A DNA stretch of 64,000 nt, from positions 1,240,001 to 1,304,000 of the forward strand of contig NC_023033.1 in assembly GCF_000505665.1 (NCBI RefSeq), read 5' to 3'. This document shows positions 1,331 through 59,662 of this stretch, piece after piece. Origin of the DNA: Thermosynechococcus sp. NK55a. GTDB lineage: Bacteria > Cyanobacteriota > Cyanobacteriia > Thermosynechococcales > Thermosynechococcaceae. Both the position numbers and the translations under genes were made by a program. The stretch's first letter is position 1; each line of letters opens with the position of its first letter. The notes beneath the pieces were generated by a model. It saw only the letters and a program-made list of their open reading frames with translations. It was not told where the DNA came from and searched no databases.

Positions 1331-2028
1331 CTGTTGCTGATTTTGCCATCCTCAATTTTGGTGATGCGATCAGCAATAGCTGTAATACGGGGATCATGGG
1401 TAACAATCAATACCGTGCAGTCGTTTTGCTTGGCCAGCTTGTCGAGAATCTTGATCACCTGTTGGCCATTTTGGGAATCAAGGGAGGCTGTGGGTTCATC
1501 GGCAAAAATGATCTTTGGCTCACCGGCCAAGGCACGGGCAATGGCAACCCGTTGTTTTTGTCCTCCGGAGAGGTTGGCGGGCACAAAGTCGCAGCGATCG
1601 CCCAAGCCAACTGCCTCGAGAAGCGCTGCTGCCTGTTCCTTCGCTTTTTTGCCTTTAATGCCCTTAAGATTGAGGGCAATTTCAACATTTTCCAGTGCGG
1701 TCAAGGCAGGGAAAAGATTAAAACTCTGAAAGATAAAGCCAATATTTTGCAGGCGGAATTTTGCCAGTGCGACCTTGGACAGTTGGGTTATCTCTTGGCC
1801 TAAGACAACCACTTGACCACTGGTGGGGGCAAGAATGCCGGCCAAAATCGAGAGCAGAGTGGTTTTCCCCGACCCCGAAGGTCCCATCAGCAGATGGATA
1901 TGACCGGCTTCGATTTGTAGATTGATTCCCTGCAGAACAGGGGTCTCCTGATGACCAGAACGATAAACCTTGGTTAGATTGGTGGTGGCGATCGCCAGCC
2001 TAGTCGTGATCACAGCGGCAAGTCTCAT
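1327..2028 (-). CDS. ABC transporter ATP-binding protein (DevA/LolD/MacB-like)
   Basis: A 233-residue ATPase subunit of the family that drives MacB/LolD/DevA-type export or lipoprotein release. Walker A (GPSGSGKTT), the Q-loop region, signature LSGGQKQR, Walker B (IIFADEPTASLD) and the H-loop (VTHD) are all intact. No membrane or fusion subunit sits beside it, so its permease must be encoded elsewhere. It lies 19 nt downstream of the ArsA-like gene on the same strand and could be co-transcribed. DevA is the closest cyanobacterial name I can offer; the substrate is unknown. Confidence 0.88.
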   Translation of the reverse strand: MRLAAVITTRLAIATTNLTKVYRSGHQETPVLQGINLQIEAGHIHLLMGPSGSGKTTLLSILAGILAPTSGQVVVLGQEITQLSKVALAKFRLQNIGFIFQSFNLFPALTALENVEIALNLKGIKGKKAKEQAAALLEAVGLGDRCDFVPANLSGGQKQRVAIARALAGEPKIIFADEPTASLDSQNGQQVIKILDKLAKQNDCTVLIVTHDPRITAIADRITKIEDGKISNS

Positions 2029-2047
2029 CAGTCATTGATTGGGCGAA

Positions 2048-3235
2048 TTAGCCACTGGTGGCACTAGCAAAGCGGATTTTCAGGTAGTCCGCCTCCATTT
2101 TCGCGCCCACCGGTTGCAGCGCTGCCAATCCTTGGGGGAGCACCATATTACGACGATGGTTGCCAATGCGAATATTCAACTCATCCGCCGTCTTGTTCAG
2201 TTCAATTTTTTCCTTGGGGACCCCCGGTAGATACAGTTCAAGACTGTACTGGCCATCGCTGGGCACCACCCGAATTGTTTGCTCGTGGTAATAAACCTGA
2301 GCTGGATCCTCATCGCCATAGAGGGTCTCCTTCAGGCGATGCAGTGCTGCTAAACCACAGAGTTCCTCAGCAAACAAGGGGACTTCCTTGACGGGCAGGG
2401 GGCGAAAATTGTCGTGAATCTCTTGGCGATACCGTTGCTGGGTTTCTTTCCAGCGGGTAAAGAAGGGATCATGCACGGTCTCCGGCAAAATGCGGTTGGC
2501 CACCACTAAATCCGTGGCCACATTGTAGAGGCTGAGATAGGCATGGGCACGAAGGGATTCCTTGATCACCATCTTTTCTGGATTGGTTACCAAGCGCACG
2601 GAGGTTTGCGTGTTGTCGGTGAGAACTTTTTCAAGGGCTTCAATCTGCTCATAAAATTCATAGGGTGCATCCATGACCTCTTGATCGGGCAAAGAGAACC
2701 CTACCAAGGGCTTGAAAATTGGCTCCACAATGGGTCGCAAGGCCACGGACATCCGCTGTAAGGGTTTGTAGAAGCGGCGCATATACCAGCCGCTCACCTC
2801 GGGCAGGCTCAACAGCCGCAGTGCCGTGCCTGTGGGGGCAGAGTCAATAATGAGGACATCGTATTGACCTTCGTCGTAGTGGCGCTTCATACGCACAAGG
2901 GCAAAAATTTCATCCATCCCCGGCAAGATGGCCAATTCCTCCGCCTGAACTCCTTCTAACCCCCGCGCCTGCAAGACTTGGGTAATGTAGCGCTTGACGG
3001 CTCCCCAGTTGTCCTCCAGTTCCATGAGGGCATCTAGTTCGGCACCCCAGAGATTTTCGGCAACGGGCACTGGCACATGCCCCAGTTCCATGTCAAAACT
3101 ATCGGCAAGGGAGTGGGCGGGATCGGTACTCAGCACCAAGGTTTTGTAGCCCAACTCGGCACAGCGTAGCCCCGTTGCTGCCGCCACTGAGGTTTTACCA
3201 ACGCCACCTTTGCCAGTCATTAAAATTACGCGCAT
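2048..3235 (-). CDS. ArsA/Get3-family ATPase with C-terminal HSP20-like domain
   Basis: A 395-residue soluble ATPase. The N-terminus has the deviant P-loop GKGGVGKTS and the [12 protein letters not shown] switch typical of ArsA/Get3. The family DTAP motif appears as DSAPTG, near residues 130-136. From about residue 325 the sequence ([21 protein letters not shown]) looks like the HSP20-like domain found at the C-terminus of cyanobacterial and plastid ArsA homologues. In this family the role is targeting of tail-anchored proteins or anion transport; which applies here is not shown. It is followed at 19 nt by the ABC ATPase and is divergent from psbA1. Confidence 0.9.
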
Positions 3236-3495
3236 GGGAAGGCTCTGCCCTAAACACAGTTGCTTAAAATATCTTAACTCTTGAGCTTATCCTTGGGGGG
3301 CGATCGCTCGCCATCAATGGAAATAAAATCATTAAGGAAAATAAATAAATACAACTACCTATTTAGTTTTATTAACAATCATTTAGAACCCTCCCCGATC
3401 TCCCGGGGCGAATATTAACTTAATGCTTAAGCCCTTGCAGTTTATGACTGTTTTCAAGGGTTTGTAAATCAAATATATTTGGACTTATCACGACT

Positions 3496-4578
3496 ATGAC
3501 CACAACTCTCCAACGTCGCGAAAGCGCGAATTTGTGGGAGCGGTTTTGTAACTGGGTGACCAGCACCGATAACCGCCTCTATGTGGGCTGGTTTGGTGTG
3601 ATCATGATCCCCACCCTATTGGCCGCAACCATCTGCTTTGTAATTGCCTTCATCGCTGCTCCCCCTGTAGACATCGATGGCATCCGTGAGCCTGTTTCTG
3701 GTTCTTTGCTCTATGGCAACAACATCATCACCGGTGCCGTTGTCCCCTCTAGCAACGCCATTGGCTTGCACTTCTACCCCATTTGGGAAGCTGCCTCCCT
3801 CGATGAGTGGCTCTACAACGGTGGCCCTTACCAACTCATCATCTTCCACTTCCTGCTAGGTGCCTCCTGCTACATGGGTCGCCAGTGGGAACTCAGCTAC
3901 CGCCTTGGGATGCGGCCTTGGATCTGCGTGGCCTACTCTGCCCCCCTGGCCTCTGCCTTTGCGGTCTTCTTGATCTACCCCATTGGTCAAGGCAGCTTCT
4001 CTGACGGGATGCCCCTCGGTATCTCCGGTACCTTCAACTTTATGATCGTGTTCCAAGCGGAACACAACATCCTCATGCACCCCTTCCACCAACTGGGTGT
4101 GGCCGGTGTCTTTGGTGGTGCTCTGTTCTCCGCCATGCACGGTTCTCTGGTGACCTCCAGTTTGATCCGTGAAACAACCGAAACCGAATCCACCAACTAC
4201 GGTTACAAATTTGGTCAAGAGGAAGAAACCTACAACATCGTGGCTGCCCACGGTTACTTTGGCCGGCTGATCTTCCAATACGCCAGCTTCAACAACAGCC
4301 GTGCACTGCACTTCTTCCTGGCGGCTTGGCCGGTGGTGGGTGTGTGGTTCACGGCGCTGGGTATCAGCACCATGGCCTTCAACCTCAACGGTTTCAACTT
4401 CAACCACTCGGTCATTGATGCCAAGGGCAACGTGATCAACACCTGGGCGGACATTATCAACCGTGCCAACTTGGGGATGGAAGTGATGCACGAGCGCAAT
4501 GCTCACAACTTCCCCCTCGACTTGGCCAGCGCTGAGTCTGCTCCTGTGGCGATGATTGCTCCGAGCCTTAACGGCTAA
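3496..4578 (+). CDS. psbA1: Photosystem II reaction-centre protein D1, D1:1 type
   Basis: A 360-residue D1 protein, the thylakoid PSII core subunit carrying TyrZ and most Mn-cluster ligands. Y161, D170, E189, H190 and the C-terminal extension [16 protein letters not shown] after Ala344 are present, so it needs CtpA processing. Diagnostic residues are G80, Q130, C144, F158, P173, A270 and T286. Q130 with C144 and P173 is the D1:1 (PsbA1) combination of T. elongatus. It is tandem with psbA2 311 bp downstream and followed by its own terminator. The 260 bp upstream is non-coding; I could not place a convincing promoter there. Confidence 0.98.
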
Positions 4579-4607
4579 GCAACGCTATCTGCTGAACTTT
4601 TACACAG

Positions 4608-4636
4608 CCGCTCCTAAACCGAGGGGCGGTTTTTTA
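4608..4636 (+). terminator. Rho-independent terminator after psbA1
   Basis: The stem CCGCTCC / GGGGCGG (7 bp, one G-T pair) with an 8-nt loop is followed directly by T6, 30 nt after the psbA1 stop. It isolates psbA1 transcription from psbA2. Confidence 0.85.
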
Positions 4637-4790
4637 TTGCGTTACAGCCCACAGGGATTAACGGGCTCAATATTGCAAAAGCTTAAGGCTAAGGGACTCG
4701 GGTACCTCCCCAGCTCCAATGTAAAAGATTGATAAAAATTAATGGATAAACAAAGTTTCTTTGATCCTATAAAACTTGACCTCAAACCCC

Positions 4791-6046: not shown

Positions 6047-7237
6047 TTACGGGGCGGGGAGTTGATACTGATCCACAATTTTTTGGGCAAAGGCGGGCAC
6101 ATGAGCGGCAAGTTTTTGGGGATAGTTGCGCCGCACATAGAGATAGTTTCGGGTGAAGTGGGAATCAATGGAAAAGCGGGCATATTCAAGCCCTTTGGGG
6201 CCAATACGCTCAATCACTAAGCCCACCAGTTTGGCCGCCCACAGGGGCAGGGTAACGCCTTTATCGTAGGCAGGAATGCTTTGTTGCACCGCAGCGTGGC
6301 GATCGCCGGCACTCGTGACGGGCTGGATTTCCAATTGATCCTGCACAAGGTCCAGCATTTCTTGGCCAAGCTCATTGCGCACCACCAGCCACTGCCAACC
6401 TAAGGGGGCCCCCATATATCCCACCACCAAATCGGCAAGGCCATTGACGTAGTCAAAGCAACTCATGCAGGAGGGGGCAAAGACATCCTTGAGTTGATTG
6501 GTTTTGAGGCCAAAGAAGGGCACGGTTTCTGTGGAGCCGTCGCTGTGCTTGAAATGTACGCGAAAGTCCTGCATGAACTCGTAGTAAATCACCGTGTCGG
6601 GCGATCGGCTGGTGGTTTCCAGGAATTTTTGCAGACCCGCACGGGTGACGTTATCCACGCAGGGGGTTCCCAGCACATAGAGCTTCTCTAGGCCCAGTTT
6701 GTCTTGAACGGCTCGCAGGGCCTGAATTTGACAGCCAACCCCAATCACCAAGAGCCGTTTGAGGCCAGCTTGTTCCACCTGCTCTAGCACCGAAAGATTG
6801 GGAGATAGGGTGGGCTTGTTTACCCGCGCCGCCAAAATCTCCTCACGGGTGCGGGCAATCACGGGCTTGGGGGTAAAGCGATCGCTCTCGCTATTTTGAA
6901 CACAGACAACGCCCTCAACCCGTCCCGATTCCAACAGGGTAATGGCAATAGTGCTGACAATGCCCGTCCACTGGGCTCCCGGAATCGGCTCTGTTTTGCG
7001 AGCCGCCATCATCTCCCGGTGAACGCCAAAGTAGCACTCATCCCAGTTGTCAAGATCACGGGCACGGCCATGACTTTGCTGCTCAAGGGTCTCAAACTGT
7101 TGATTGAGGAAGGCACAGGCCTCTTTGACATAGTGGATATAGTAGGTGTCGCAGAGGCCACACTCACTGCATAGGGTCTTGGCGGGGCGGGGACTACCGG
7201 GCTTAAGGGCACGGGCTTTGCGATGGGCAGCAGTCAT
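6047..7237 (-). CDS. bciB: 3,8-divinyl (proto)chlorophyllide a 8-vinyl reductase, ferredoxin type
   Basis: An FrhB-like iron-sulfur flavoprotein of about 396 residues, matching the length of Synechocystis Slr1923 (BciB). It reduces the 8-vinyl group of divinyl chlorophyllide using reduced ferredoxin, a late step of chlorophyll a synthesis. The N-terminal CSECGLC plus a nearby Cys (KEACAF) and the later CMSCFDY are the expected cluster ligands. I choose the ATG at 7237; a GTG two codons upstream also fits. It starts 6 nt after the stop of the repaired transketolase-like gene, so the two are probably co-transcribed. HCAR-like reductases share the fold, so exact substrate is inference. Confidence 0.88.
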   Translation of the reverse strand: MTAAHRKARALKPGSPRPAKTLCSECGLCDTYYIHYVKEACAFLNQQFETLEQQSHGRARDLDNWDECYFGVHREMMAARKTEPIPGAQWTGIVSTIAITLLESGRVEGVVCVQNSESDRFTPKPVIARTREEILAARVNKPTLSPNLSVLEQVEQAGLKRLLVIGVGCQIQALRAVQDKLGLEKLYVLGTPCVDNVTRAGLQKFLETTSRSPDTVIYYEFMQDFRVHFKHSDGSTETVPFFGLKTNQLKDVFAPSCMSCFDYVNGLADLVVGYMGAPLGWQWLVVRNELGQEMLDLVQDQLEIQPVTSAGDRHAAVQQSIPAYDKGVTLPLWAAKLVGLVIERIGPKGLEYARFSIDSHFTRNYLYVRRNYPQKLAAHVPAFAQKIVDQYQLPAP

Positions 7238-49380: not shown

Positions 49381-50700
<1,320 letters not shown>

Positions 50701-50877
50701 TTAATCGAGATTGGGACATGGAAGCAAGCACCTAGCCTAAGGCCACTGACTTTTGCCAATGGCTCTCCAGGGGCAATGCTCAACAAAACAAAAACAAAAC
50801 AAAATAGCCAAAAAATAGCGCCCGCCATCTAGGCGCTCAGGTGTACGGCGCGCTGCGAAAGCGCCAATACATCCACG

Positions 50878-50919
50878 CGAAGAGCAGCGAAGCAACGTCG
50901 GCTGCAACCCTTGTTAGCC
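50878..50919 (-). other. Half attC-like sequence at the res stop codon
   Basis: On the minus strand the res stop codon sits in GGCTAACAAGGGTTGCAGCC followed by GACGTTGCTTCGC. This resembles the R''-L'' half of an integron attC site (YTAAC box, then TTGCAGCCGACG and a CTTCG centre). I cannot find the matching L'-R' half on the other side, so it is at best a degraded site. Confidence 0.25.
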
Positions 50920-53751
50920 TCCTGTTCTCGCCTCCTGGCCTTGCAGGAGCACGTCCCGAATCTTGCCAGGGTGTTGTGCCACGTCCCAACGCCAAACTCC
51001 AAACCCGCCGTGTGTGTTCACCGCTTGCACCCATTCGTCCAGGTAATCACGTTTGGCTTTATCCTGCTCCGTATCCTGGCCCTTGGTTTCCAGAATCAGA
51101 TGGTCCCCATTTGTGAGCCGCACGAGAAAATCGGGCCGGTACTTCCGCACCACGCCGCGATAGACGTAGAGCACCTCGAAGCCCAGGTGGTCGTTCTTGA
51201 CCCAGGCGGCCACCAGGTCGCTTTCGTCGAGCACAAAGGCATCGGACGCCTCCCAAGTGCTGTCGTACACGCAGACGTTGATGTGCGACTTCCTGGTGCG
51301 CGCGCAGGGCTTGCCCGTGTACCAGGTACGCATCTCGCCGGTGGAGCGGATGGGATGATCGCGGTCGAAGACCGGCGTCAACCGCTCGGTGTTCTTCTGC
51401 CGCACCGCCGCGACGACATGCTGCACGACCCGCGACATGTTCAGCGTGATGATCAGCCGACGCCGTAATTCGTCCTGGTAGAAGAGCGGCGGCGAGATGA
51501 CGATGCGGTCGGAGCGAATGAACTGCTCGACGATCCGCACCAACTGGGCCAGCAGCACGTCGCGGCTACCTTTCCAGGCGACCTGCATCTGATCAAAGAC
51601 ACTGCGTGCTGTCTCGAAGATGATGCGCTGGGTGCGGAATTCTCCGGCCAGGCGCTCCAGTTCGATGCGGTCAATCTTTGTCACATCCGGCTTGCCTTCG
51701 AGCACCGGCGCCAGTTCGGCGACCTGGGCGGTCTGCGCCGCGTCCAGTTCCAGCGGAGGCAGATGCGACCAATCCACAGAAAGGATGGGCTGAAGCACGT
51801 GTTCGATGCGCACGATATTCGGCCAGCGGATTTCATAAGCAGCTTTGGCCGGATCCACCTGAACGAGCGTCTTGGGAAGGGACGGCGGGGGCGGACCGCT
51901 TTCGGTGCTTTCGTGCGGCAGGAAGGTGAAGGGCACGCCGAAGATGTTGACGTACTCGGGCTCGAACAGTCCCGTTTGCGCATTCACTTCGTAAGACGTG
52001 CGCCGCAAGCCGCGGCCCACCACCTGCTCGCACAGAAGCTGTGAGGTGAATGCTCGAAGCCCCATGATGTGCGTGACCGTCTTGGCGTCCCAACCTTCGG
52101 AGAGCATGCCGACGGAGATGACGTTTTGAATCTTCTCGCCCGGCTGCCCCGCCTTGCCCACTGTGTCCACGGTCTGCCGCAGGAGTTCGGCCTGCTCTGC
52201 CTTGGTTAGCTTGTGTTCGACCGGAACGTCCTTCTCTTCCGCATTATTGGTCTCTTCCGACACTTCCACCGGCGCGGCGGGTTCCTCCTGGGCCTCCGCC
52301 TCATCCAGCACCTTCGAGTCGATGTGTAGGATGCGGTCGGGATCGCACAGTTCGTCGATGTGGATGCGCCGCGAATCGAAGGCGTGCTTGACCCGGGCAG
52401 CGGTCTCGGTGCGATTGCAGACGGTGATCATCACTGGTGGGGTTGCTAGGCCGGCTTTCCGCCAGGCTTTCCATGTCTCACGCCAGTCGTAGCCCAGCAG
52501 GTAGTAGGCGTTCAGGACCAGGTCGGGCAATGGTTCGTGTGGCTCAGCCTTGCGGTTGAGATCATCCTTCACATCCGGGTCGTTGTAGATGTGATAAAGG
52601 CGCGACTTGTAGGTCTTGGCGTCCGGAACCGCATCGTCGCGCACCACCACGCGCGGGGTCTTGACCAGCCCCGATTCGATGGCATCGTTCAAGCCAAAGT
52701 CGCTGACGATCCAGCCGAACAGCGCCTCCTCGCTGCTTTTCTTGCCCGAGGGCGTGAAGGGTGTGGCCGAAAAGTCGTAGCATTTCAGAATGCCACGGGA
52801 ACGGTGGAGGCGGTCCAGCCCGCCAATCCAGACGGTAGCTTCTTCGGCGCTGTCCTTGAGGTCACGTTGGCGCAGGTACTTGCCTTCTGCTTCCGAGTTC
52901 ACTCGCCAAGCGTGGTGGGCCTCGTCGTTGATGACCAGGATGTTCCGCGCATTCGCCATCTCGCCCAGCACCTCGCGGGTGTACGCCTCGTCGCTCTTCG
53001 CGCCGCGCTTGTCCACGCTCTTGCGTTTTTTCAGTTGCTCTTCGCTCTCCCAGGCCAGGGCGTGCCAGTTGCGCACGAGCACCTTCCCCTGCCGCAGCTT
53101 GTCGAGCAGGGCGGAAGGGACGATGTCGAAGGCTTCGTAGTAGTTGCCCTCGGCGGCGGGGAGAAGCACCTCGAGCCGCTTTTTGACCGTCAGTCCGGGG
53201 GCGATGACCAGGACGTTTTTCGAGAAACGGGCGTCCTGCGGGTTGGCGACCTTGTTGAGAATCTGCCAGGCGATGACCATCGCCATCACGACGGTCTTGC
53301 CCGTGCCGGTTGCCATCTTGCAACACTGGCGAACAAAGTCGCCGCCGTCGCCAGGAATCTCGATCCCCACGCGCTCGGCGGCGGGCGCTTCAGTGAGCCA
53401 GATGAGCGTTTCCACCGCCTCCAACTGGCAGAAGAAAAAGCGGCGTGTGTCGAACTCCTCCGGATCGCGCCAGTGTTCGAGCAGCCGCTTGGTGATGCTG
53501 GTCACGCCCGGGTAGCCCGCCTCGCGCCAGGCCTTGACGCGGGGGCGGATCTGATTGACCAGAGGGATTTCCACGAAGATCCCGGGATCGTCGAAAGACT
53601 TGGCTCCCGGCGTTGCCATGACGTAGCCGGCTGGACGACGCCCTTCGACCAAATCGAAGGTGCGCGTTTCCCGGTCGTAGCGCCAATATCGACTCGGCTC
53701 CTCGTAGGGCGAGTTGACGATCAGGCGGTCGATGGTGGTCTTGCTTGTCAT
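50914..53751 (-). CDS. Type III-like restriction helicase-nuclease (Res)
   Basis: 945 residues. A SF2 helicase core shows Walker A MATGTGKT (146-153), NDEAHH (275-280) and SATPF (328-332), later QVVGRGLRR (motif VI). A PD-(D/E)XK nuclease near the C-terminus shows YRPDFLVRL and ILETKGQD. This matches the BPTD_3080-type restriction endonucleases that pair with an N6/N4 methyltransferase. It is last in the five-gene operon, 8 nt after the PIN gene. High GC and no HIP1 sites mark it as foreign. It appears intact. Confidence 0.9.
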   Translation of the reverse strand: MTSKTTIDRLIVNSPYEEPSRYWRYDRETRTFDLVEGRRPAGYVMATPGAKSFDDPGIFVEIPLVNQIRPRVKAWREAGYPGVTSITKRLLEHWRDPEEFDTRRFFFCQLEAVETLIWLTEAPAAERVGIEIPGDGGDFVRQCCKMATGTGKTVVMAMVIAWQILNKVANPQDARFSKNVLVIAPGLTVKKRLEVLLPAAEGNYYEAFDIVPSALLDKLRQGKVLVRNWHALAWESEEQLKKRKSVDKRGAKSDEAYTREVLGEMANARNILVINDEAHHAWRVNSEAEGKYLRQRDLKDSAEEATVWIGGLDRLHRSRGILKCYDFSATPFTPSGKKSSEEALFGWIVSDFGLNDAIESGLVKTPRVVVRDDAVPDAKTYKSRLYHIYNDPDVKDDLNRKAEPHEPLPDLVLNAYYLLGYDWRETWKAWRKAGLATPPVMITVCNRTETAARVKHAFDSRRIHIDELCDPDRILHIDSKVLDEAEAQEEPAAPVEVSEETNNAEEKDVPVEHKLTKAEQAELLRQTVDTVGKAGQPGEKIQNVISVGMLSEGWDAKTVTHIMGLRAFTSQLLCEQVVGRGLRRTSYEVNAQTGLFEPEYVNIFGVPFTFLPHESTESGPPPPSLPKTLVQVDPAKAAYEIRWPNIVRIEHVLQPILSVDWSHLPPLELDAAQTAQVAELAPVLEGKPDVTKIDRIELERLAGEFRTQRIIFETARSVFDQMQVAWKGSRDVLLAQLVRIVEQFIRSDRIVISPPLFYQDELRRRLIITLNMSRVVQHVVAAVRQKNTERLTPVFDRDHPIRSTGEMRTWYTGKPCARTRKSHINVCVYDSTWEASDAFVLDESDLVAAWVKNDHLGFEVLYVYRGVVRKYRPDFLVRLTNGDHLILETKGQDTEQDKAKRDYLDEWVQAVNTHGGFGVWRWDVAQHPGKIRDVLLQGQEARTGG

Positions 53752-53759
53752 GGGCTTAG

Positions 53760-54164
53760 CTATACGTGAAGGGATACAACATTCATACCCTTAATCTTGC
53801 AGATTGGCTTTGATGGCTTTTCCATTGTTACGAACTCGTCCACTTTTGCCGCCAACGCTGCCCCCGCATGAAGCGCGTCCATCGGTGCCACATCGTAGGT
53901 GGAAGCAAGCTCTATCGCCTTCTCTGTCACATCGGGATCACAAGGCACATTTTCCGCTGCATTCTCGAGCACAGCATTCATAAACTCAACTTCTTCGGCC
54001 CGTTTATGAAATCTCGGCTTAGGCAGTACTTCCAGTCGGAGAAAATCGCTGACTACCAACTCGCGGTTAGGATCGTCCAACACTTCCAAGGCACGGCGGG
54101 AGATATTCTCTTCGCCTTGAAACGCGGCAATCAAGACATTCGCATCAATGTACGTCCGCTTCAT
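53760..54164 (-). CDS. PIN-domain protein (putative toxin ribonuclease)
   Basis: 134 residues from MKRTYIDANVLIAAF. Acidic residues of the PIN site are visible: Asp in YIDANVL, Glu in FLRLEVLPK, and Asp in APMDALHAG; the fourth would lie in VTMEKPS, where the usual Asp is not obvious. The ORF starts 6 codons earlier, but ATG at 54164 better fits the family. It overlaps the upstream antitoxin-like gene by 20 nt. In family terms it would be a VapC-like RNase. Confidence 0.82.
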   Translation of the reverse strand: MKRTYIDANVLIAAFQGEENISRRALEVLDDPNRELVVSDFLRLEVLPKPRFHKRAEEVEFMNAVLENAAENVPCDPDVTEKAIELASTYDVAPMDALHAGAALAAKVDEFVTMEKPSKPICKIKGMNVVSLHV

Positions 54165-54516
54165 CGTCCTCAGGCTCTCCACGCCTCCGTTTTACCTCTT
54201 CCAGCACCTCATCGGCACTTAACAATTTCATACCTGCCTCAATCGCTCGGATGCGCAGGGACAGGAGTTTCCTGCCTAACGGGGTACGTGGGACAAACAC
54301 TTCGGTTACTTCCGGAAATATGATTTCCGTACTTCGGTAGCTCATGTCTTCTTCAGGGAGAGACAACACAAAGTTGATCCAAGGATCGGCTCTGCGATAC
54401 TTTTCCGTTGGAAGACTATAGTCAGTCCCTTCCTCGAGGTATTTCGGGGAAAGAACTCCGTAGGTTTTCCTGGCAGCCCAGTCGCTGTTCAATCGTTCCG
54501 TCAACGTCGCGCTCAT
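54145..54516 (-). CDS. Antitoxin-like partner of the PIN protein
   Basis: 123 residues. The C-terminal third (TPLGRKLLSLRIRAIEAGMK, LLSADEVLEEVKRRRG) resembles C-termini of antitoxins encoded just upstream of PIN toxins. The N-terminal two thirds (YGVLSPKYLEEGTDYS, FPEVTEVFVPR) is longer than a usual VapB and unfamiliar. It overlaps the upstream TIGR04255 gene by 4 nt (ATGA) and the PIN gene by 20 nt. The antitoxin role is inference from position and tail. Confidence 0.6.
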   Translation of the reverse strand: MSATLTERLNSDWAARKTYGVLSPKYLEEGTDYSLPTEKYRRADPWINFVLSLPEEDMSYRSTEIIFPEVTEVFVPRTPLGRKLLSLRIRAIEAGMKLLSADEVLEEVKRRRGEPEDDEADVH

Positions 54517-55283
54517 GACTGCCCCTCCTCGTACTCAGGTTCAAGCTTGGCTATTGTCTCCGGTGTCAATAGGCCGAAAAACATTTTCTTCGACGACAAA
54601 TGGACATCGTCGAGGTGACTTTCGACATCAGGCCAAGACTCATTTTCTTTCATGGTCCTGATGGAATCTATATCCAACAGAACTCCGAGCAATCTTCCGG
54701 GCTCGCCTGGAATGGACGCCTCCGCCGGCGATACGATCTGGATGATATGAATTATGTCGCCTTCTTTGATCTCTGTGCGGAGTTGGACCGGTCGGGTATC
54801 GATCTTATATCCCCCCATTTTGATTTCGAGATTCAGACAACTGAGACTCGGTGGCTGATTCAACTCAATTAGATCAATGTATTTCAAGGAGAAACGCTCC
54901 AGCCGATCAATCAACCCGGTATCGCGGATAATTGTGATTACTGTCCGTATACCTTTGGAGAACGTCTTCCATCCCGAATATGGTCGGCGACAGCTTAGAG
55001 AGACGACATGTTCCCCTATCTGAACCGCCTGGTTCCCACCCTCCAAACGAATCTTGGGAACGTATCTGAGCTTGGGATCATGTTCTACTATGGGCGCCGG
55101 AATATCCGCAGAGGGAAGGCGGACAATGTTAGGGTACTTATTCGGTAAAGCCTGGAACACAAGTCCAGGAAGCAATTCGGCCACAGATGGTTTTCTACCC
55201 GTAAATCGGATTTCCCACACTGCTTCTAGCAGAGGTTCTTTGCGTAATTTTTTCGGTATCTTGTTCGGTATCTTGTTGGCCAT
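54513..55283 (-). CDS. TIGR04255 family protein
   Basis: 256 residues. EPLLEAVWEIRF near the start, YSGWKTFSKGI and a beta-rich middle (LKYIDLIELNQPPSL) match the sporadically distributed TIGR04255 family. Function is unknown. AGGAG lies 8 nt before the ATG, overlapping the mod stop region. The N-terminus NKIPNKIP arises from a 12-bp tandem duplication. Its GC is visibly lower than that of mod and res. It sits between mod and the antitoxin-like gene. Confidence 0.78.
   Translation of the reverse strand: MANKIPNKIPKKLRKEPLLEAVWEIRFTGRKPSVAELLPGLVFQALPNKYPNIVRLPSADIPAPIVEHDPKLRYVPKIRLEGGNQAVQIGEHVVSLSCRRPYSGWKTFSKGIRTVITIIRDTGLIDRLERFSLKYIDLIELNQPPSLSCLNLEIKMGGYKIDTRPVQLRTEIKEGDIIHIIQIVSPAEASIPGEPGRLLGVLLDIDSIRTMKENESWPDVESHLDDVHLSSKKMFFGLLTPETIAKLEPEYEEGQS
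55252..55275 (-). repeat. 12-bp tandem duplication at the 5' end of the TIGR04255 gene
   Basis: The unit TTCGGTATCTTG (plus strand) occurs twice head to tail and encodes the NKIP repeat. Frame-neutral. Confidence 0.9.
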
Positions 55284-55293
55284 GTTTTATCTC

Positions 55294-58095
55294 CTATGAA
55301 AGTTCCATCACCTTCATACTCTCAATCCCCCGGTCGTCCACGATCTTGACCGCGATGCGCTTGTGTTCGCCCGGCTCGAAGGGCAGCGACACCGTGCCGC
55401 GGTAGGCTTCGATGCGCTCCGCGTCAATCTCGGCCTTGAGGTTGCGCGCCAGCTTCGCCCAGCCCTCGTTCTCGCCTGCCATCGGGAAGAACACCTGGCG
55501 TGGATAGAGACTGCGGCCGTCGTAGTCGGTATCCAGCATCCAGACGGCGATCTTGTCCGCGCCGCCTGATTCGATCTGGCCGGTCTTGGTGTTGTAGTAG
55601 TCGAAACCGTGCACTTCGACGACATACTTCCCGTCTTTCTCCCTGCGCACCTCCACGTCTGGCTGGCCGATGAGCCAGAAGGATTCGTTGCTGGCGCGCT
55701 TCTTCTTGAGGTCCTCGGTGAGCAAGTCGGCGTTCATCTGCACTTTCAAGAACTGCATGCCGGCAAGTTCCGGCTTCATCTCGTCGATGTCCTTGGCCGC
55801 CTCGGGGTCGAACTGGAAGGCGGCGAAGACGATGAGCTTGGGCTTGGGCACCAGTGTCTGCGCCTCCTCGATGGCGTGCGCCACCTGGCGCTGTTCCAGC
55901 GGTGCGTGCTCGGGACCGAAAGAGACCACCACGCGCATCGGGTCGTAGGCGGGCGCCGTCTCGCGGACTCGGTCGGCCCCCTCGTCGCTCGGGCGCGTCT
56001 CGCCATCCGCGTGCAGCCAGCGGCAGCCGGGCAGGGGTTCGAGCCGCGCGAAGCGGATGTATTGCCCCGCCTTGCCGCGAATGCCGGTGCGCAAGAGTTC
56101 ATCGCGCCATTCGGCCTGGCGCAGCGTCTCGCCGGAACGGGCGATGGAGGTGTCGGCGGGTTGCGGTTTGTCTTCGAGAATCTCCTCCGGCGATTTCACC
56201 GCCGGAGCGGGCACCGCCTCCACCGTGAACGGCCCGGTCACGCGCACCTTCTTGCGGTCAACGAAGGGCTGGTCGTAGAGCGTCTCCTGCGGGGCGTGCC
56301 GGGCGATGGCGGCGTCAATGTCTGCTCGCCGTTGGGCGAGCAGAGTTTTGAGTTGTGAGTTTTTAGTGTCCAGTTGGGGATCGCTTTTGGCGGCGTCGCG
56401 GATGTATTGCTCCAGCAGGCCAAACTCTGCCTTTTCCAAATGCCGCTGCACCCGCTCTCTCTCTAAAAACTCGAAACTCGAAACTAAAAACTCCTCCAAC
56501 CTCTTCGCCCAGCGCGCGTGGATGCCATCGATCTCCGGGTTGTTGGCGATGGACTTGAGCGTGACGTGCGGCACGGTCTTGTATTTGAAGCCGCTGCCCA
56601 CGCCCTCTTCGGGATGCGCCAGTTCGTAGTAATCGAAGACGGCGGTCATCAGCCGCTGGCGGGCGAGCGTGAGCGCCACGCGCGAGGTGTCGCAGGTGAT
56701 CCAGCGCCGACCCCACTTCTCGGCCACATAGGCCGTCGTGCCGCTGCCGCAGGTGGGATCGAAGACCAGGTCGCCCGGGTCGGTGGTCATCAGGAGGCAG
56801 CGTTCGATGACCTTCGTGCCTGTCTGGACGACATAAAGCTTTTCGACTGCAAACGTGCTTTGAACAGTATCTTCCCACGTCGCCGTAATGCGAACATGTG
56901 GAAAATCCGTCGCGTAACGTTTGTAAACCAGCGTATTTCCTATTCCAAGAAGCCTCCCGATGCTAGCAAGCCGCTGAAGACCCACTAGACTTGTTGTCCA
57001 GCCGCGCCCTGCCCCGCTCGGCTTGTACGTCTTGCCCTCGAAGTCAAAGTCAAATCTCGAAGTATCGCTACCTGTTTGTGAAGTAGTGTTGCCAGCACCG
57101 AAAATCCTGTGGTCGGCTGCAGGTATTTGACCTTCTTTGATTCGATAGTAACTGCCGTCTGCTCTTTCGGCATAGGGATAAGCCGCAGCATCCTCCGCTG
57201 CGGTTCGAGGTCTGTAAAGGGGCCGAAACTTCACACGCTCTCTATCCTTCGCATACCACAGCACGAAGTCGTATGTGGCTGCAAGCAACTGGCTGGTTTG
57301 GCCCACGGTCTTCTTGAATGCGATGACCGCGCAGAAATTCCCCGCCCCAAACACCTCATCCATCAACTCCCGCACGTGATGCACGTTCTCGTCGCTTATT
57401 TGCACGAAGATGCTGCCGCTCTCGGTGAGGAGTTCCCGCGCCAGCAGCAGCCGGTCGCGTAAGTAAGTGAGGTAGGAGTGGATGCCCAGTTCCCAGGTGT
57501 CGCGAAACGCCCGGATCTGCTCCGGCTCGGCGGTCAGGTCTTCGTCCTTGCCGTCCTTCACGTCGCGCTTGTTGACGAAGGGCTGGAAGTTGGAGCCGTA
57601 CTTGATGCCGTAGGGCGGGTCAATGTAAATCATCTGCACTTTGCCCGCCATGCCCTCCTTTTCCAGCAGCGAGTTCATCACGAGCAGCGAATCGCCGGCG
57701 ATCAGGCGGTTCGACCAGCCGTGGCGGTGCTGGTAGAACTCGATAGCCTCCCGCAGTGGCTCTTTTCTCTCTTCCTCGAACAGTGATAACTGGCCACTAG
57801 CCACTGACCACTGACCACTGTCTTTCCGCACCGCCTCGATGATGGTGCGCGGCTCGATGCGCTCGTGGACGTGCAGCGATACCGTCGGCACTTCGAAGGA
57901 GGTGTGCTCGGCCTTGCCCGCCCAGACCAGTTGCGGGTCCAGGTGCGGGTCGTAGGCGTAGCGCTTTTTCTTCTGCCCGGCGTCCGGGTCGGTCTCTGGC
58001 GTCACGAGTCCAACCAGCGGGTTGTTCAGGCGCTCTTTGTCGCGATGCTCGTAGGATGCGATGGGGCGGCTGGAGGACTGTTTTTTGCGCGGCAT
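55294..58095 (-). CDS. Type III-like DNA methyltransferase (Mod), beta class
   Basis: 933 residues. Motif IV IDPPYGIKYG (158-167) precedes motif I FDPTCGSGTTAYVA (445-458); the long span between them (about 255-430) should hold the target-recognition domain. The C-terminal 450 residues are a family extension without a motif I know. It is first in the operon and supplies the modification activity paired with Res. Three tracts of 7-bp repeats lie inside the frame, at residues about 92-105, 535-544 and 573-584 (QWSVASGQLS, SSFEFLER, NSQLKTLL). The frame is open throughout. Confidence 0.9.
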   Translation of the reverse strand: MPRKKQSSSRPIASYEHRDKERLNNPLVGLVTPETDPDAGQKKKRYAYDPHLDPQLVWAGKAEHTSFEVPTVSLHVHERIEPRTIIEAVRKDSGQWSVASGQLSLFEEERKEPLREAIEFYQHRHGWSNRLIAGDSLLVMNSLLEKEGMAGKVQMIYIDPPYGIKYGSNFQPFVNKRDVKDGKDEDLTAEPEQIRAFRDTWELGIHSYLTYLRDRLLLARELLTESGSIFVQISDENVHHVRELMDEVFGAGNFCAVIAFKKTVGQTSQLLAATYDFVLWYAKDRERVKFRPLYRPRTAAEDAAAYPYAERADGSYYRIKEGQIPAADHRIFGAGNTTSQTGSDTSRFDFDFEGKTYKPSGAGRGWTTSLVGLQRLASIGRLLGIGNTLVYKRYATDFPHVRITATWEDTVQSTFAVEKLYVVQTGTKVIERCLLMTTDPGDLVFDPTCGSGTTAYVAEKWGRRWITCDTSRVALTLARQRLMTAVFDYYELAHPEEGVGSGFKYKTVPHVTLKSIANNPEIDGIHARWAKRLEEFLVSSFEFLERERVQRHLEKAEFGLLEQYIRDAAKSDPQLDTKNSQLKTLLAQRRADIDAAIARHAPQETLYDQPFVDRKKVRVTGPFTVEAVPAPAVKSPEEILEDKPQPADTSIARSGETLRQAEWRDELLRTGIRGKAGQYIRFARLEPLPGCRWLHADGETRPSDEGADRVRETAPAYDPMRVVVSFGPEHAPLEQRQVAHAIEEAQTLVPKPKLIVFAAFQFDPEAAKDIDEMKPELAGMQFLKVQMNADLLTEDLKKKRASNESFWLIGQPDVEVRREKDGKYVVEVHGFDYYNTKTGQIESGGADKIAVWMLDTDYDGRSLYPRQVFFPMAGENEGWAKLARNLKAEIDAERIEAYRGTVSLPFEPGEHKRIAVKIVDDRGIESMKVMELS
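56343..56377 (-). repeat. Heptanucleotide repeat tract in mod (GAGTTTT-like)
   Basis: Five successive degenerate 7-mers on the plus strand: GAGTTTT, GAGTTGT, GAGTTTT, TAGTGTC, CAGTTGG. Loss or gain of one unit would shift the mod frame. Confidence 0.7.
56466..56493 (-). repeat. Heptanucleotide repeat tract in mod (GAAACTC-like)
   Basis: Four successive 7-mers on the plus strand: AAAACTC, GAAACTC, GAAACTA, AAAACTC. Confidence 0.8.
57781..57822 (-). repeat. Heptanucleotide repeat tract in mod (CACTGAC-like)
   Basis: Six successive 7-mers on the plus strand: CAGTGAT, AACTGGC, CACTAGC, CACTGAC, CACTGAC, CACTGTC. It encodes QWSVASGQLS in Mod. Confidence 0.8.
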
Positions 58096-58255
58096 ATCGG
58101 GGAACAGGCCAGTAGTATTTTGAGAAAATTGTACATGGAACTATAAAGGCTGTGCCGCGATTCTACCCCTGTTGTGGCTCTGACCCCCTCCCTCAATTGA
58201 TCCGCTGGCTGACTTTCGGCTAAGGTTTTGGGAAGTCCCTTGTCAGCGTTGCCCT

Positions 58256-59662
58256 ATGTCTTTCAAGCGGTTGGTGCTTGCCGCCCTCAGTGTTGTGGTG
58301 GCTGCCCTGATTACGGTGTCCTTGCTAGGCAGCTATTTGGAGCCTCAAACCCAAGGGCAAATCAACCTGTCTCAAACTAATTTGTCACTGCAAGCCCGCG
58401 AATGGCAGGGGCTAGGGGATGCTGACGTTGGCGATCGCCTCCTCGGCGATCTACAAGGAGCGATCAAAGCCTATGAAAGGGTGCTGCAGACCCCCACACC
58501 GCAAAACCAACCGCTGCGTCTGCAATTAGGACTGCTCTATGCTGAAACTGGGCAGGGCGATCGCGCCCTGAAAACCTGGCGATTCCTGATCCAAGAGGGT
58601 CAAGGGGCAACCCGCAGTACAGCAGAAGTACTCCTCAGCCTGTGGTCAGAGCCACCGCAACTGCTCCCAGAGGCGGAACCATTGATTAAAAATACCCTCC
58701 ACGGCTGGTTTCGCGATCGCGCCCTCGAACGCCTCTACGAACTGCAACAGCGCTCCGATGCCCTGATGGCCCTGGCCAGTGCCGAACAAAACCGCGCCAA
58801 AGCGGCCTTCTATCGCCTTGCCCTCCTTGGCGCGACGCCATTGCTAGGAAGTTTGATTGGGATGGTTCTCTGGATTGTCTGGATCTATCAACACCTGCGC
58901 CGCCGCCACCAAGGAAATCCCCTCCCATCCCTAACCCCCGTCACATGGAGCTGGGAAACCCTCTGGGAAGGCATGGTGATCTGGTTTGCCCTCTTTTTTG
59001 CCATTAGCCTGATGCTGATGCCCTTGGTGCGCACCCTGATCAGTCAGGGGCTGCCGCTGCGTTCCGCTATGGCTCAAACCCTCTATGCATTGGCCAGTTA
59101 CAGCATCATCACGGCGGCAGGCTTGGGCTGGCTCTGGTATTTCCTGCGTCCCTTTGGCAAGCGCCCTTGGCAATGGCTACGCTGGCAGGGAGGGTTAGGG
59201 AGAGCGCTGCGTTGGGGGGTAGGTGGCTATTTTGCCGCGCTTCCCCTAGTGCTGTTGAGTTCACTCGCCAGTCAAGCCCTCCTCAAAAATCAAGGGGGGG
59301 GAAATCCGCTGCTGGAGATTATTTTGCAGAGCCGTGACTATCCAACCTTTGCTCTGCTCTATGTCATGGTGGCACTGATGGCGCCCTTCTTTGAGGAGAT
59401 TCTCTTTCGGGGCTTTTTCTTTCGTTCTGTGCAATCCTATCTCCCCCTAGGCACAGCCATGGGCCTCACTGGGGTGTTGTTTGCGATTGCCCACCTCAAT
59501 TTAGCCGACCTCTTGCCCCTGACGGTTTTGGGAACAGTGCTCAGCTACATCTACTGGCGATCGCAAAACATTGGTGCGGCAATGATTCTCCACAGCATCT
59601 GGAACAGTGGCTCCTTTTTAGGCTTGCTCCTATTGAGCGGGGGGACGGAAGCGGGGTTCTAA
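58256..59662 (+). CDS. CPBP-family intramembrane metalloprotease with N-terminal TPR-like region
   Basis: 468 residues. A signal anchor (5-25) is followed by a helical TPR-like part (about 60-180), then a helix near 190 and a membrane domain to the end. The CPBP (Abi/CAAX-protease-like) motifs are EEILFRGFFFR, FAIAHLNL and the late HSIWNSG. Family members cleave prenylated or membrane proteins; cyanobacterial roles are unknown. HIP1 sites resume in this gene, marking the right side of the island. Confidence 0.88.
   Translation: MSFKRLVLAALSVVVAALITVSLLGSYLEPQTQGQINLSQTNLSLQAREWQGLGDADVGDRLLGDLQGAIKAYERVLQTPTPQNQPLRLQLGLLYAETGQGDRALKTWRFLIQEGQGATRSTAEVLLSLWSEPPQLLPEAEPLIKNTLHGWFRDRALERLYELQQRSDALMALASAEQNRAKAAFYRLALLGATPLLGSLIGMVLWIVWIYQHLRRRHQGNPLPSLTPVTWSWETLWEGMVIWFALFFAISLMLMPLVRTLISQGLPLRSAMAQTLYALASYSIITAAGLGWLWYFLRPFGKRPWQWLRWQGGLGRALRWGVGGYFAALPLVLLSSLASQALLKNQGGGNPLLEIILQSRDYPTFALLYVMVALMAPFFEEILFRGFFFRSVQSYLPLGTAMGLTGVLFAIAHLNLADLLPLTVLGTVLSYIYWRSQNIGAAMILHSIWNSGSFLGLLLLSGGTEAGF

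Follow-up and report, generated by a model that had tools for sequence, protein, structure and literature searches.

The question raised by this locus is why three small genes should lie between the two halves of a restriction-modification (R-M) operon. In Thermosynechococcus sp. NK55a, a stretch of 64,000 nucleotides (nt) of contig NC_023033.1 (positions 1,240,001 to 1,304,000), referred to here as the window, contains a block of five minus-strand genes. A gene for a TIGR04255 family protein, a small gene called gene 2 and a gene for a PIN-domain protein (together, the trio) stand between mod and res, which encode the methyltransferase and the helicase-endonuclease of a type III-like R-M pair. 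An earlier note, made from the sequence of this stretch, had regarded the trio as conserved cargo of a five-gene unit that might act on loss of the system or on failure of restriction. Comparison with homologous loci suggests another answer: the mod-res gap appears to be a swappable slot for interchangeable cargo, and the trio is rather likely to be a tripartite toxin-antitoxin (TA) back-up defence plugged into the R-M operon through this slot. The parts of this reading differ in strength. The operon and the slot are nearly certain from the sequence comparisons, the tripartite TA nature of the cassette is probable, an anti-phage role has about an even chance, and a direct coupling of the cassette to failure of the R-M system is doubtful. 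The features of the block are as follows.

55294-58095, minus strand: mod, type III-like N6/N4 DNA methyltransferase, 933 amino acids (aa), from PF01555 and PADLOC MTase_III
54513-55283, minus strand: TIGR04255 family protein, 256 aa, heads the cassette, candidate sensor or partner, from NCBIfam TIGR04255
54145-54516, minus strand: gene 2, putative antitoxin-like bridging protein, 123 aa, from C-terminal similarity to other PIN cassettes
53760-54164, minus strand: PIN-domain protein, 134 aa, candidate RNase toxin, from PF01850
50914-53751, minus strand: res, type III-like helicase-endonuclease, 945 aa, from NF046055 and ResIII PF04851
50817-50837, minus strand: terminator-like hairpin 3' of res, from a pattern match only

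Genes were called with simple open reading frame (ORF) rules, and the positions reproduce exactly the gaps given in the earlier note (+10, -4, -20 and +8 nt in the order mod, TIGR04255, gene 2, PIN, res). The PIN gene starts with ATG, with an alternative GTG at 54182. A pattern scan of 50700-58300 returned no promoter-like site and 10 terminator-like sites on both strands, compared with a shuffle mean of 7.7; the sole minus-strand site (50837-50817) lies directly beyond res, which fits a single transcript. Type III Mod and Res proteins restrict DNA together, cleavage requiring two inversely oriented sites and methylation being placed on one strand. Mod matches PF01555 (E 8e-32 in a Pfam scan) and PADLOC MTase_III (E 9.4e-175), its translation contains DPPY and DPTCGSGTT motifs, and its best solved chains are the type III Mods 6k0w, EcoP15I 4zcf and Mbo45V 7dsu, placing it in the methyltransferase class of the EcoP1/EcoP15 Mods. 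Res scores 1186 bits against NF046055, the BPTD_3080 family (cut-off 800), and also matches ResIII PF04851 and, weakly, PADLOC REase_III (E 2.4e-11). Walker A, DEAH and PD...ExK motifs can be seen in its translation, which we take to be those of a superfamily 2 (SF2) helicase and a C-terminal nuclease, the combination that defines a type III Res. Both genes are open and the pair is apparently intact. The type III-like assignment of the earlier note holds with the MTase_III and NF046055 matches.

The three genes between them are consistent with a sensor-like, an antitoxin-like and a PIN gene in one operon, again as first proposed. The TIGR04255 protein is a member of its NCBIfam family (E 1.9e-39, 136 bits, curated cut-off 30) and also matches phrog_5464 (E 1.5e-56), a group of unknown function in PHROGs. 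Gene 2 has no family match in Pfam, NCBIfam, PADLOC or PHROGs. The PIN protein matches PF01850 (E 1.3e-12, 48.8 bits, cut-off 23.6), and its acidic residues, which we take to be catalytic, align with those of other cassette PINs. Most PIN domains are RNases, a small gene that overlaps a PIN gene usually encodes an antitoxin, and VapBC consists of a small upstream gene overlapping a PIN-domain gene; gene 2 and the PIN gene, with its acidic residues retained, have the layout of such a type II TA system. Among solved structures, no sequence relatives were found for the TIGR04255 protein, the PIN protein, gene 2 or Res.

The place of the trio in such operons can be judged from relatives of Res. 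A scan of GTDB genomes gave 476 relatives, and the 80 best-scoring loci among them were used (loci are cited by L number); mod ends beyond the locus in 10, leaving 70 measurable mod-res pairs. Many of these loci are metagenome bins, scoring took only the order mod before res, and cargo was defined as a co-directional ORF of at least 50 aa. A cargo ORF lies between mod and res in 48/70 pairs, a figure that applies to this branch of nearest relatives, and the two genes abut without cargo (gap of at most 80 bp) in 22/70. The same trio is present in one pair of the 70 (L009). The idea of a conserved five-gene unit does not survive this count. The earlier note had added that a trio almost never found in homologous pairs would be a chance insertion; the rarity is real, but the conclusion does not follow, because the slot recurs (48/70) and cassettes with TIGR04255 are found repeatedly within other defence operons; the insertion does not have a random look. 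A third instance of the mod-trio-res order, L239, came from the TIGR04255 search; its mod (1676-4682) is broken in two by a shift of frame near residue 818 that is either real or an assembly error. Under a stricter rule (start of the co-directional ORF -45 to +30 nt from the upstream stop), genes follow mod in 40/70 pairs and res in 21/66; a co-directional ORF stands directly before mod in 14/49, by a looser test than those used after mod and res.

The gap can be called swappable because cargo differs among pairs, including one exchange in place. Genome G179 (L114) has this R-M operon too, likewise between ppa- and CPBP-like genes (names assigned by eye) and thus at the same site of the chromosome. 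An unbroken match to L114 (89.5% identity) links the 5' part of mod with CPBP, and the 3' end of mod matches at 91% as far as the cargo edge, where a DUF4258-like ORF (82 aa) and a DUF2283-like ORF (70 aa) take the place of the trio (Pfam names borrowed from the relative L023).

The cargo itself is diverse. A Pfam scan of 30 chosen cargo proteins gave NTP_transf_2 with HepT, HEPN, AAA_15/AAA_21, CAP12 TIR, PIN, M78 with DUF4411, DUF1828, DUF4258 with DUF2283, SLFN AlbA_2, OLD TOPRIM and Uma2 with DUF433; a DUF4276 match fell slightly below its Pfam cut-off. With families taken from Pfam on cluster representatives, MNT-HEPN pairs occupy 14 loci (12 of one HEPN type and 2 of another, several with extra genes), stand-alone PIN genes 6, AAA_15-type ATPases with a PIN-like partner 5 (the L011 partner itself has no Pfam match), CAP12-type TIR genes 5 (3 combined with other cargo), and ATPases with a DUF4276-like gene, ATPases alone and IrrE-type genes 2 each, besides rarer types. 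Within the phylum of the window, Uma2-type cargo is found in L115 (with DUF433, scanned), L116 and L121 (both by eye), ATPase plus PIN cargo in L118 (scanned) and L119 (by eye), and OLD-like ATPase/TOPRIM cargo in L124. Decay can also be seen: L021 (1124-1288) and L028 (7853-8017) hold just a 54-aa ATPase start between mod and res, which is whole in the close relatives L030 (6200-8017) and L051.

A FastTree phylogeny of Res had 88 rows: the window, 79 loci out of the 80 (L073 was too short) and 8 others. On it, cargo labels change 43 times when 19 unlabelled rows are treated as one group and 25 times without them. The minimum for the 43 is 12 and the shuffled mean 57.3, and none of 200 shuffles gave a value as low. 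Cargo is labile but not random on the res tree. The three trio hosts require 3 changes, all 3 forced by starred branches, and a single gain of the trio followed by descent with res is not favoured, although recombination within res would blur this result. The three mod-res trios form a group on the TIGR04255 tree, separate from the one in a bacteriophage exclusion (BREX) operon (support 89), so that one entry into mod-res followed by cargo transfer between R-M lineages is possible.

A slot peculiar to NF046055-type Res was also considered and rejected, since another group of type III Res has genes between as well. The NF012027 Res model is above cut-off in 4/299 genomes and gives any match in 64/299; among 30 of its loci (L250-L279), 2 of them without upstream sequence, genes lie between mod-like and res ORFs in 13 or 14 of 28, counted by eye. 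RhuM-, Fic/Doc-, MNT-HEPN- and PIN-like genes are presumably present in these operons, the names being given by eye to unscanned proteins. Type III-like operons in general may have this slot. In the literature that could be searched, which left out most subscription papers and all bioRxiv preprints, the accessible texts describe no mod-res cargo slot, and the names TIGR04255, BPTD_3080, phrog_5464, phrog_4575 and DUF7689 are absent.

The TIGR04255 gene can be followed outside R-M operons. It is present in 33/386 genomes of a sample from the phylum of the window, in 51/294 and 23/297 genomes from the phyla of L009 and L018, in 3/10 genomes picked from the res loci, and in 0/14 named control genomes. 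Ninety-two loci were collected (among them L001, the copy in the window, and L179, a duplicate of L009), and the profile gave a TIGR04255 ORF in 90 of them (not in L168 and L212). In 88/90 a co-directional gene comes directly after TIGR04255, overlapping it in 75 and by exactly 4 nt in 41, and in 17/87 the 60 bp upstream contain the end of a co-directional gene; some cassette chain calls are spurious ORFs (e.g. L191, L193, L206). The third genes (n = 74) form an unnamed cluster of 16 with a TQxCDL-like motif, an unnamed cluster of 11, and clusters of 9 PIN, 6 HEPN-like, 6 DUF7689, 4 HicA-like and 2 PemK genes, together with unnamed clusters of 3, 3 and 2 and 12 singles, some of them spurious. 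Among scanned representatives, PIN, PemK and DUF7689 are above their Pfam cut-offs, HEPN is above in L160 and not in L211, and HicA is below (E 0.03). On a TIGR04255 tree of 86 rows (quick IQ-TREE search, labels partly our own reading), third-gene labels change 26 times with the unlabelled group (minimum 11, shuffled mean 60.3) and 21 times without it; the PIN label changes 6 times, at least 4 of them forced. Cassette partners appear to be mostly inherited, with several exchanges. One such exchange can be seen in L214 and L216, whose TIGR04255 proteins are 85% identical over 257 aa and whose third genes have no match. As TIGR04255 is common to the cassettes and is linked through gene 2 to genes of toxin classes, it may be a sensor or a stabiliser; a role as the toxin itself is unlikely, because genes of known toxin classes come after it. 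The label of hub or sensor is guessed from the order of the genes.

Gene 2 would be the link between the two. Its C-terminal ~38 aa are common to gene 2 of the PIN cassettes L198, L204, L190 and L195. In L214 and L216, the pair with exchanged third genes, gene 2 is alike in the first 82 aa only, and L214 and L197 agree in the third gene (58%) and in 40 residues of the C-terminal part of gene 2. Between cassettes of the same toxin class whose TIGR04255 proteins have less than 45% scaled identity, partial gene-2 matches are C-terminal in 46/48 cases and N-terminal in 0/48; a fast-evolving N-terminus could add to this bias. The simplest reading of these pairwise patterns is that gene 2 is a bridge, with an N-terminal part facing the hub and a C-terminal part facing the toxin.

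Related cassettes also occur in other defence operons and in phages. The lineage of the trio (window, L219/L239, L009 and L213; the TIGR04255 proteins of the three mod-res trios and L213 form one starred group) lies between mod and res three times, in the window, L009 and L239. A further cassette of the trio lineage, L240, is placed in a BREX operon in the order PglX-cassette-PglZ-BrxL, with an overlap of 4 nt between its PIN gene and pglZ. More distant cassettes stand between HmaA and HmaB (L243 with PIN, L333 with TQxCDL) and between HmaB and HmaC (L327 with PIN, L328 with a HicA-like gene). In L241 a PemK-type cassette is directly upstream of a mod of the window's family (84% over the first 211 aa), and in L242 a cassette follows a more distant res-mod pair (33% and 39%). 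The Pseudomonas phages VW-6S and Dobby carry TIGR04255, gene 2 and a TQxCDL-type gene. In VW-6S these follow the CI repressor; in Dobby, whose record is circular, they have integrase on one side and portal on the other. Four records of the phage collection match the TIGR04255 of the window and three weaker ones that of L145; among plasmids, each of two queries gave one record, the same Phocaeicola plasmid. Four single-protein queries found no TIGR04255 relatives in viral_contigs. Probes for R-M, BREX, Hma, type I and type IV genes matched in 10/60 widened cassette neighbourhoods and in 1/20 control regions. These 60 exclude a separately chosen set of 10 (PIN, mod or res matches, or genome already included), which cannot be pooled with the 60; 5 of the 10, L239-L243, lie within an R-M, BREX or Hma operon or next to one. 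Operon, slot, cargo swapping, interchangeable third genes and embedding in mod-res, BREX and Hma operons all appear directly in these comparisons of sequence.

Beyond this, we infer toxicity, sensing, complex formation, a trigger, defence and coupling to R-M. In the proposed mechanism, Mod and Res would supply first-line restriction, and the cassette would be silent as a complex of TIGR04255, gene 2 and PIN. TIGR04255 would act as hub and sensor or as antitoxin stabiliser, engaged by the N-terminal part of gene 2, the C-terminal part of which would hold the PIN toxin. When the cell is infected, or when the system is lost or inhibited, TIGR04255 or the antitoxin would be disturbed, freeing PIN, which would cut RNA and stop growth.

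Several known systems resemble parts of this arrangement. As far as the accessible parts of the sources go, PrrC, inside the EcoprrI type Ic R-M locus, is a suicide RNase that serves as a second line when restriction is inhibited (PMC3710099, PMC12707154). In systems of this type the effector is silenced by the R-M complex and set free by anti-restriction. The operon in the window is similar in that a gene, presumably of effector type, lies among R-M genes. It differs in being type III-like rather than type I, and PrrC is a single ABC-HEPN transfer RNA (tRNA) nuclease with neither TIGR04255 nor a separate antitoxin, whereas the cargo here comprises TIGR04255, gene 2 and PIN and contains no ABC-HEPN anticodon nuclease. 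HEPN, Doc and RhuM genes linked to R-M have been described as multi-pronged neighbourhoods of R-M and toxins, with at least 16 HEPN clades (Anantharaman 2013, PMC3710099); in the accessible portion of that paper the linkage is not presented as one fixed mod-res slot. BREX and DUF499/Hma (BR) operons hold HEPN-MNT, OLD-ABC with PIN or TOPRIM, and Schlafen back-up effectors, according to the available text (PMC12839542). Many of the same cargo classes are found here within mod-res, although the core of those operons is not type III-like R-M and TIGR04255 is not named there. The concept of toxins within R-M or BREX operons is already in print (PMC3710099, PMC12839542). Toxin-antitoxin-chaperone (TAC) systems consist of a toxin, an antitoxin and a third protein needed by the antitoxin, and CmdTAC defends against phage, as the accessible part of the source states (PMC9519451; see also PMC9098466). 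The three-gene logic is alike, but the third protein of TAC is SecB-like, whereas TIGR04255 shows no SecB likeness, is the first gene and has toxins interchangeable across several families. The overlap of a small gene with the PIN gene recalls VapBC, from which the cassette departs in being headed by TIGR04255 and in a PIN protein far under the VapC equivalog cut-off.

A number of observations weigh against a tripartite TA defence headed by TIGR04255. By the probes used, most TIGR04255 cassettes are not beside R-M, BREX or Hma genes, and the surplus over controls is weak and not decisive. The PIN protein scores 17.9 bits against the VapC equivalog NF047959 (cut-off 80). The third-gene groups of 16 and 11 members belong to no family, and the word toxin is unproven there. 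No PDB entry matches the TIGR04255 protein in sequence (best E 0.56). The idea of TIGR04255 as a SecB-like chaperone found no support (hhalign probability of 0.7% with E. coli SecB, a weak test with a single-sequence target), nor did that of a chaperone-dependent hydrophobic stretch in gene 2 (12/82 at KD17 of at least 1.6, compared with 17% of shuffles). The pairs behind the gene-2 matches are not independent, and 6 of 8 gene-2 matches between different toxin groups, all 6 of them c1-c7, are central to C-terminal although the TIGR04255 proteins of the pairs are dissimilar; the unnamed third-gene groups c1 and c7 may thus be distant kin rather than separate groups.

Other explanations of the cargo are less probable. 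The cassette might be a stabilisation module that acts by post-segregational killing and guards the R-M operon against loss or displacement, with no sensing of phage. This is an unlikely but reasonable account: a small gene overlaps the PIN gene in a type II TA-like order, many slot cargos are TA-like pairs, and R-M genes of the family are broken in relatives (a TAG in the res of L124, fragments in L127 and L128). R-M systems are themselves addictive, however, and the cargos include TIR, OLD/ATPase and Schlafen-type genes, which are typical effectors rather than addiction pairs. The phage copies, moreover, are at places resembling the superinfection-defence hotspots gpA-gpQ and cI-int of phages and satellites, as given in the accessible parts of that study (Rousset 2022, PMC9122126), Dobby's lying beside the portal and that of VW-6S after CI. 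The other neighbour in Dobby is integrase and not gpA, and the string TIGR occurs 0 times in the main text of Rousset 2022.

It is somewhat less likely still that the mod-res junction only tolerates insertions, so that cargo shares a transcript and no function. The lability of cargo on the res tree (43 or 25 changes), the many empty junctions (22/70), the 54-aa ATPase remnants in L021 and L028, the close genes after res (21/66) and before mod (14/49) and the weak defence-gene surplus around TIGR04255 (10/60 and 1/20) would all agree with such hitch-hiking. They have to be set against the scored cargo being co-directional and, where scanned, largely of toxin or abortive-infection families, and against the occurrence of the same cassette lineage in BREX (L240) and of relatives in Hma operons. 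A timing device, in which any stable cargo would delay or gate Res relative to Mod on entry to a new cell, is very improbable. Mod does precede res around cargo, by construction of the scoring, but 22/70 pairs have no spacer and a spacer has no need of toxins. A back-up defence housed in a swappable slot is the reading preferred here.

The history of the block in the chromosome can be described separately, with two further features.

50732-58195: complete insert, 7464 bp, from alignment to the empty sites L170 and L172
56845-57307, minus strand: stretch of mod without nucleotide match in L114, where matches end at 56844 (88.6%) and restart at 57308 (89.5%)

In the two empty sites, which are from two genomes of the same genus, left homology stops at 50731 (L170) or 50730 (L172) and right homology restarts at 58196; 3-4 bases separate the flanking homologies, and the ppa- and CPBP-like genes are ~0.1 kb apart. 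The distance is ~4.6 kb (L169), 1.5 kb (L171), 0.65 kb (L174) and 1.4 kb (L175) in four other genomes, and the site may be an insertion hotspot. Highly iterated palindrome 1 (HIP1, GCGATCGC) has 85 sites in the window and 0 in the block, and none of 873 overlapping windows of block length outside the block (50-base steps) is free of HIP1; this density of sites makes a cyanobacterial host probable. The absence of HIP1 and the foreign composition described in the earlier note stand, but the composition is not uniform: the GC content of third codon positions (GC3) is 0.78 in mod and 0.80 in res and 0.53-0.55 in TIGR04255, gene 2 and PIN, with a GC of 0.54 outside the block. The block is a composite of two compositional layers, with the trio unlike mod and res.

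The unmatched stretch 56845-57307 is probably the target recognition domain. Short tandem-like tracts at 57770-57825 and 56340-56500 (GTCAGTGG-type and CTCAAAACTC-type) are translated through in frame. In L114, ~430 bp (6640-7073) break the relative's mod, leaving its last part in another frame, and a 120-aa ORF in the interruption (6673-7035) resembles, by eye, a four-helix-bundle protein of the ribosomal RNA (rRNA) intervening sequence type. The mod genes of L116 (5559-9224), L121 (5183-8800) and L124 (5415-7859) have an in-frame insert of ~0.9-1 kb near residue 448; that of L124 sits within the DPTC|GSGTT motif and resembles, by eye, an intein with a DUF559-like endonuclease part. Fragments of Res (residues ~514-621) are found at a second place in the window's genome (L128 9503-9772, C1:2379478-2379771) and in a relative (L127 4430-4738). 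In L127 the first 184 aa of mod precede a type III-like operon of another kind, an arrangement that looks like replacement of the middle by a second R-M system.

In a wider and more tentative reading, somewhat short of an even chance, TIGR04255 could be the shared hub of undescribed tripartite TA immune modules with a two-faced antitoxin and a freely exchangeable toxin (PIN, HEPN, PemK, HicA-like or of several unknown families), plugged into mod-res, BREX, Hma and phages as a self-destruct layer, with the mod-res junction of type III-like operons as a general socket. If this is true, TIGR04255, a family in name only as far as the searched literature goes, would stand at the centre of many modular immune cassettes that form one large family, and mod-res junctions would be a place to find new toxins and abortive-infection proteins by simple reading. 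The exchange of toxins behind one hub would also make it possible to study cleanly how different killers are connected to an immune sensor.

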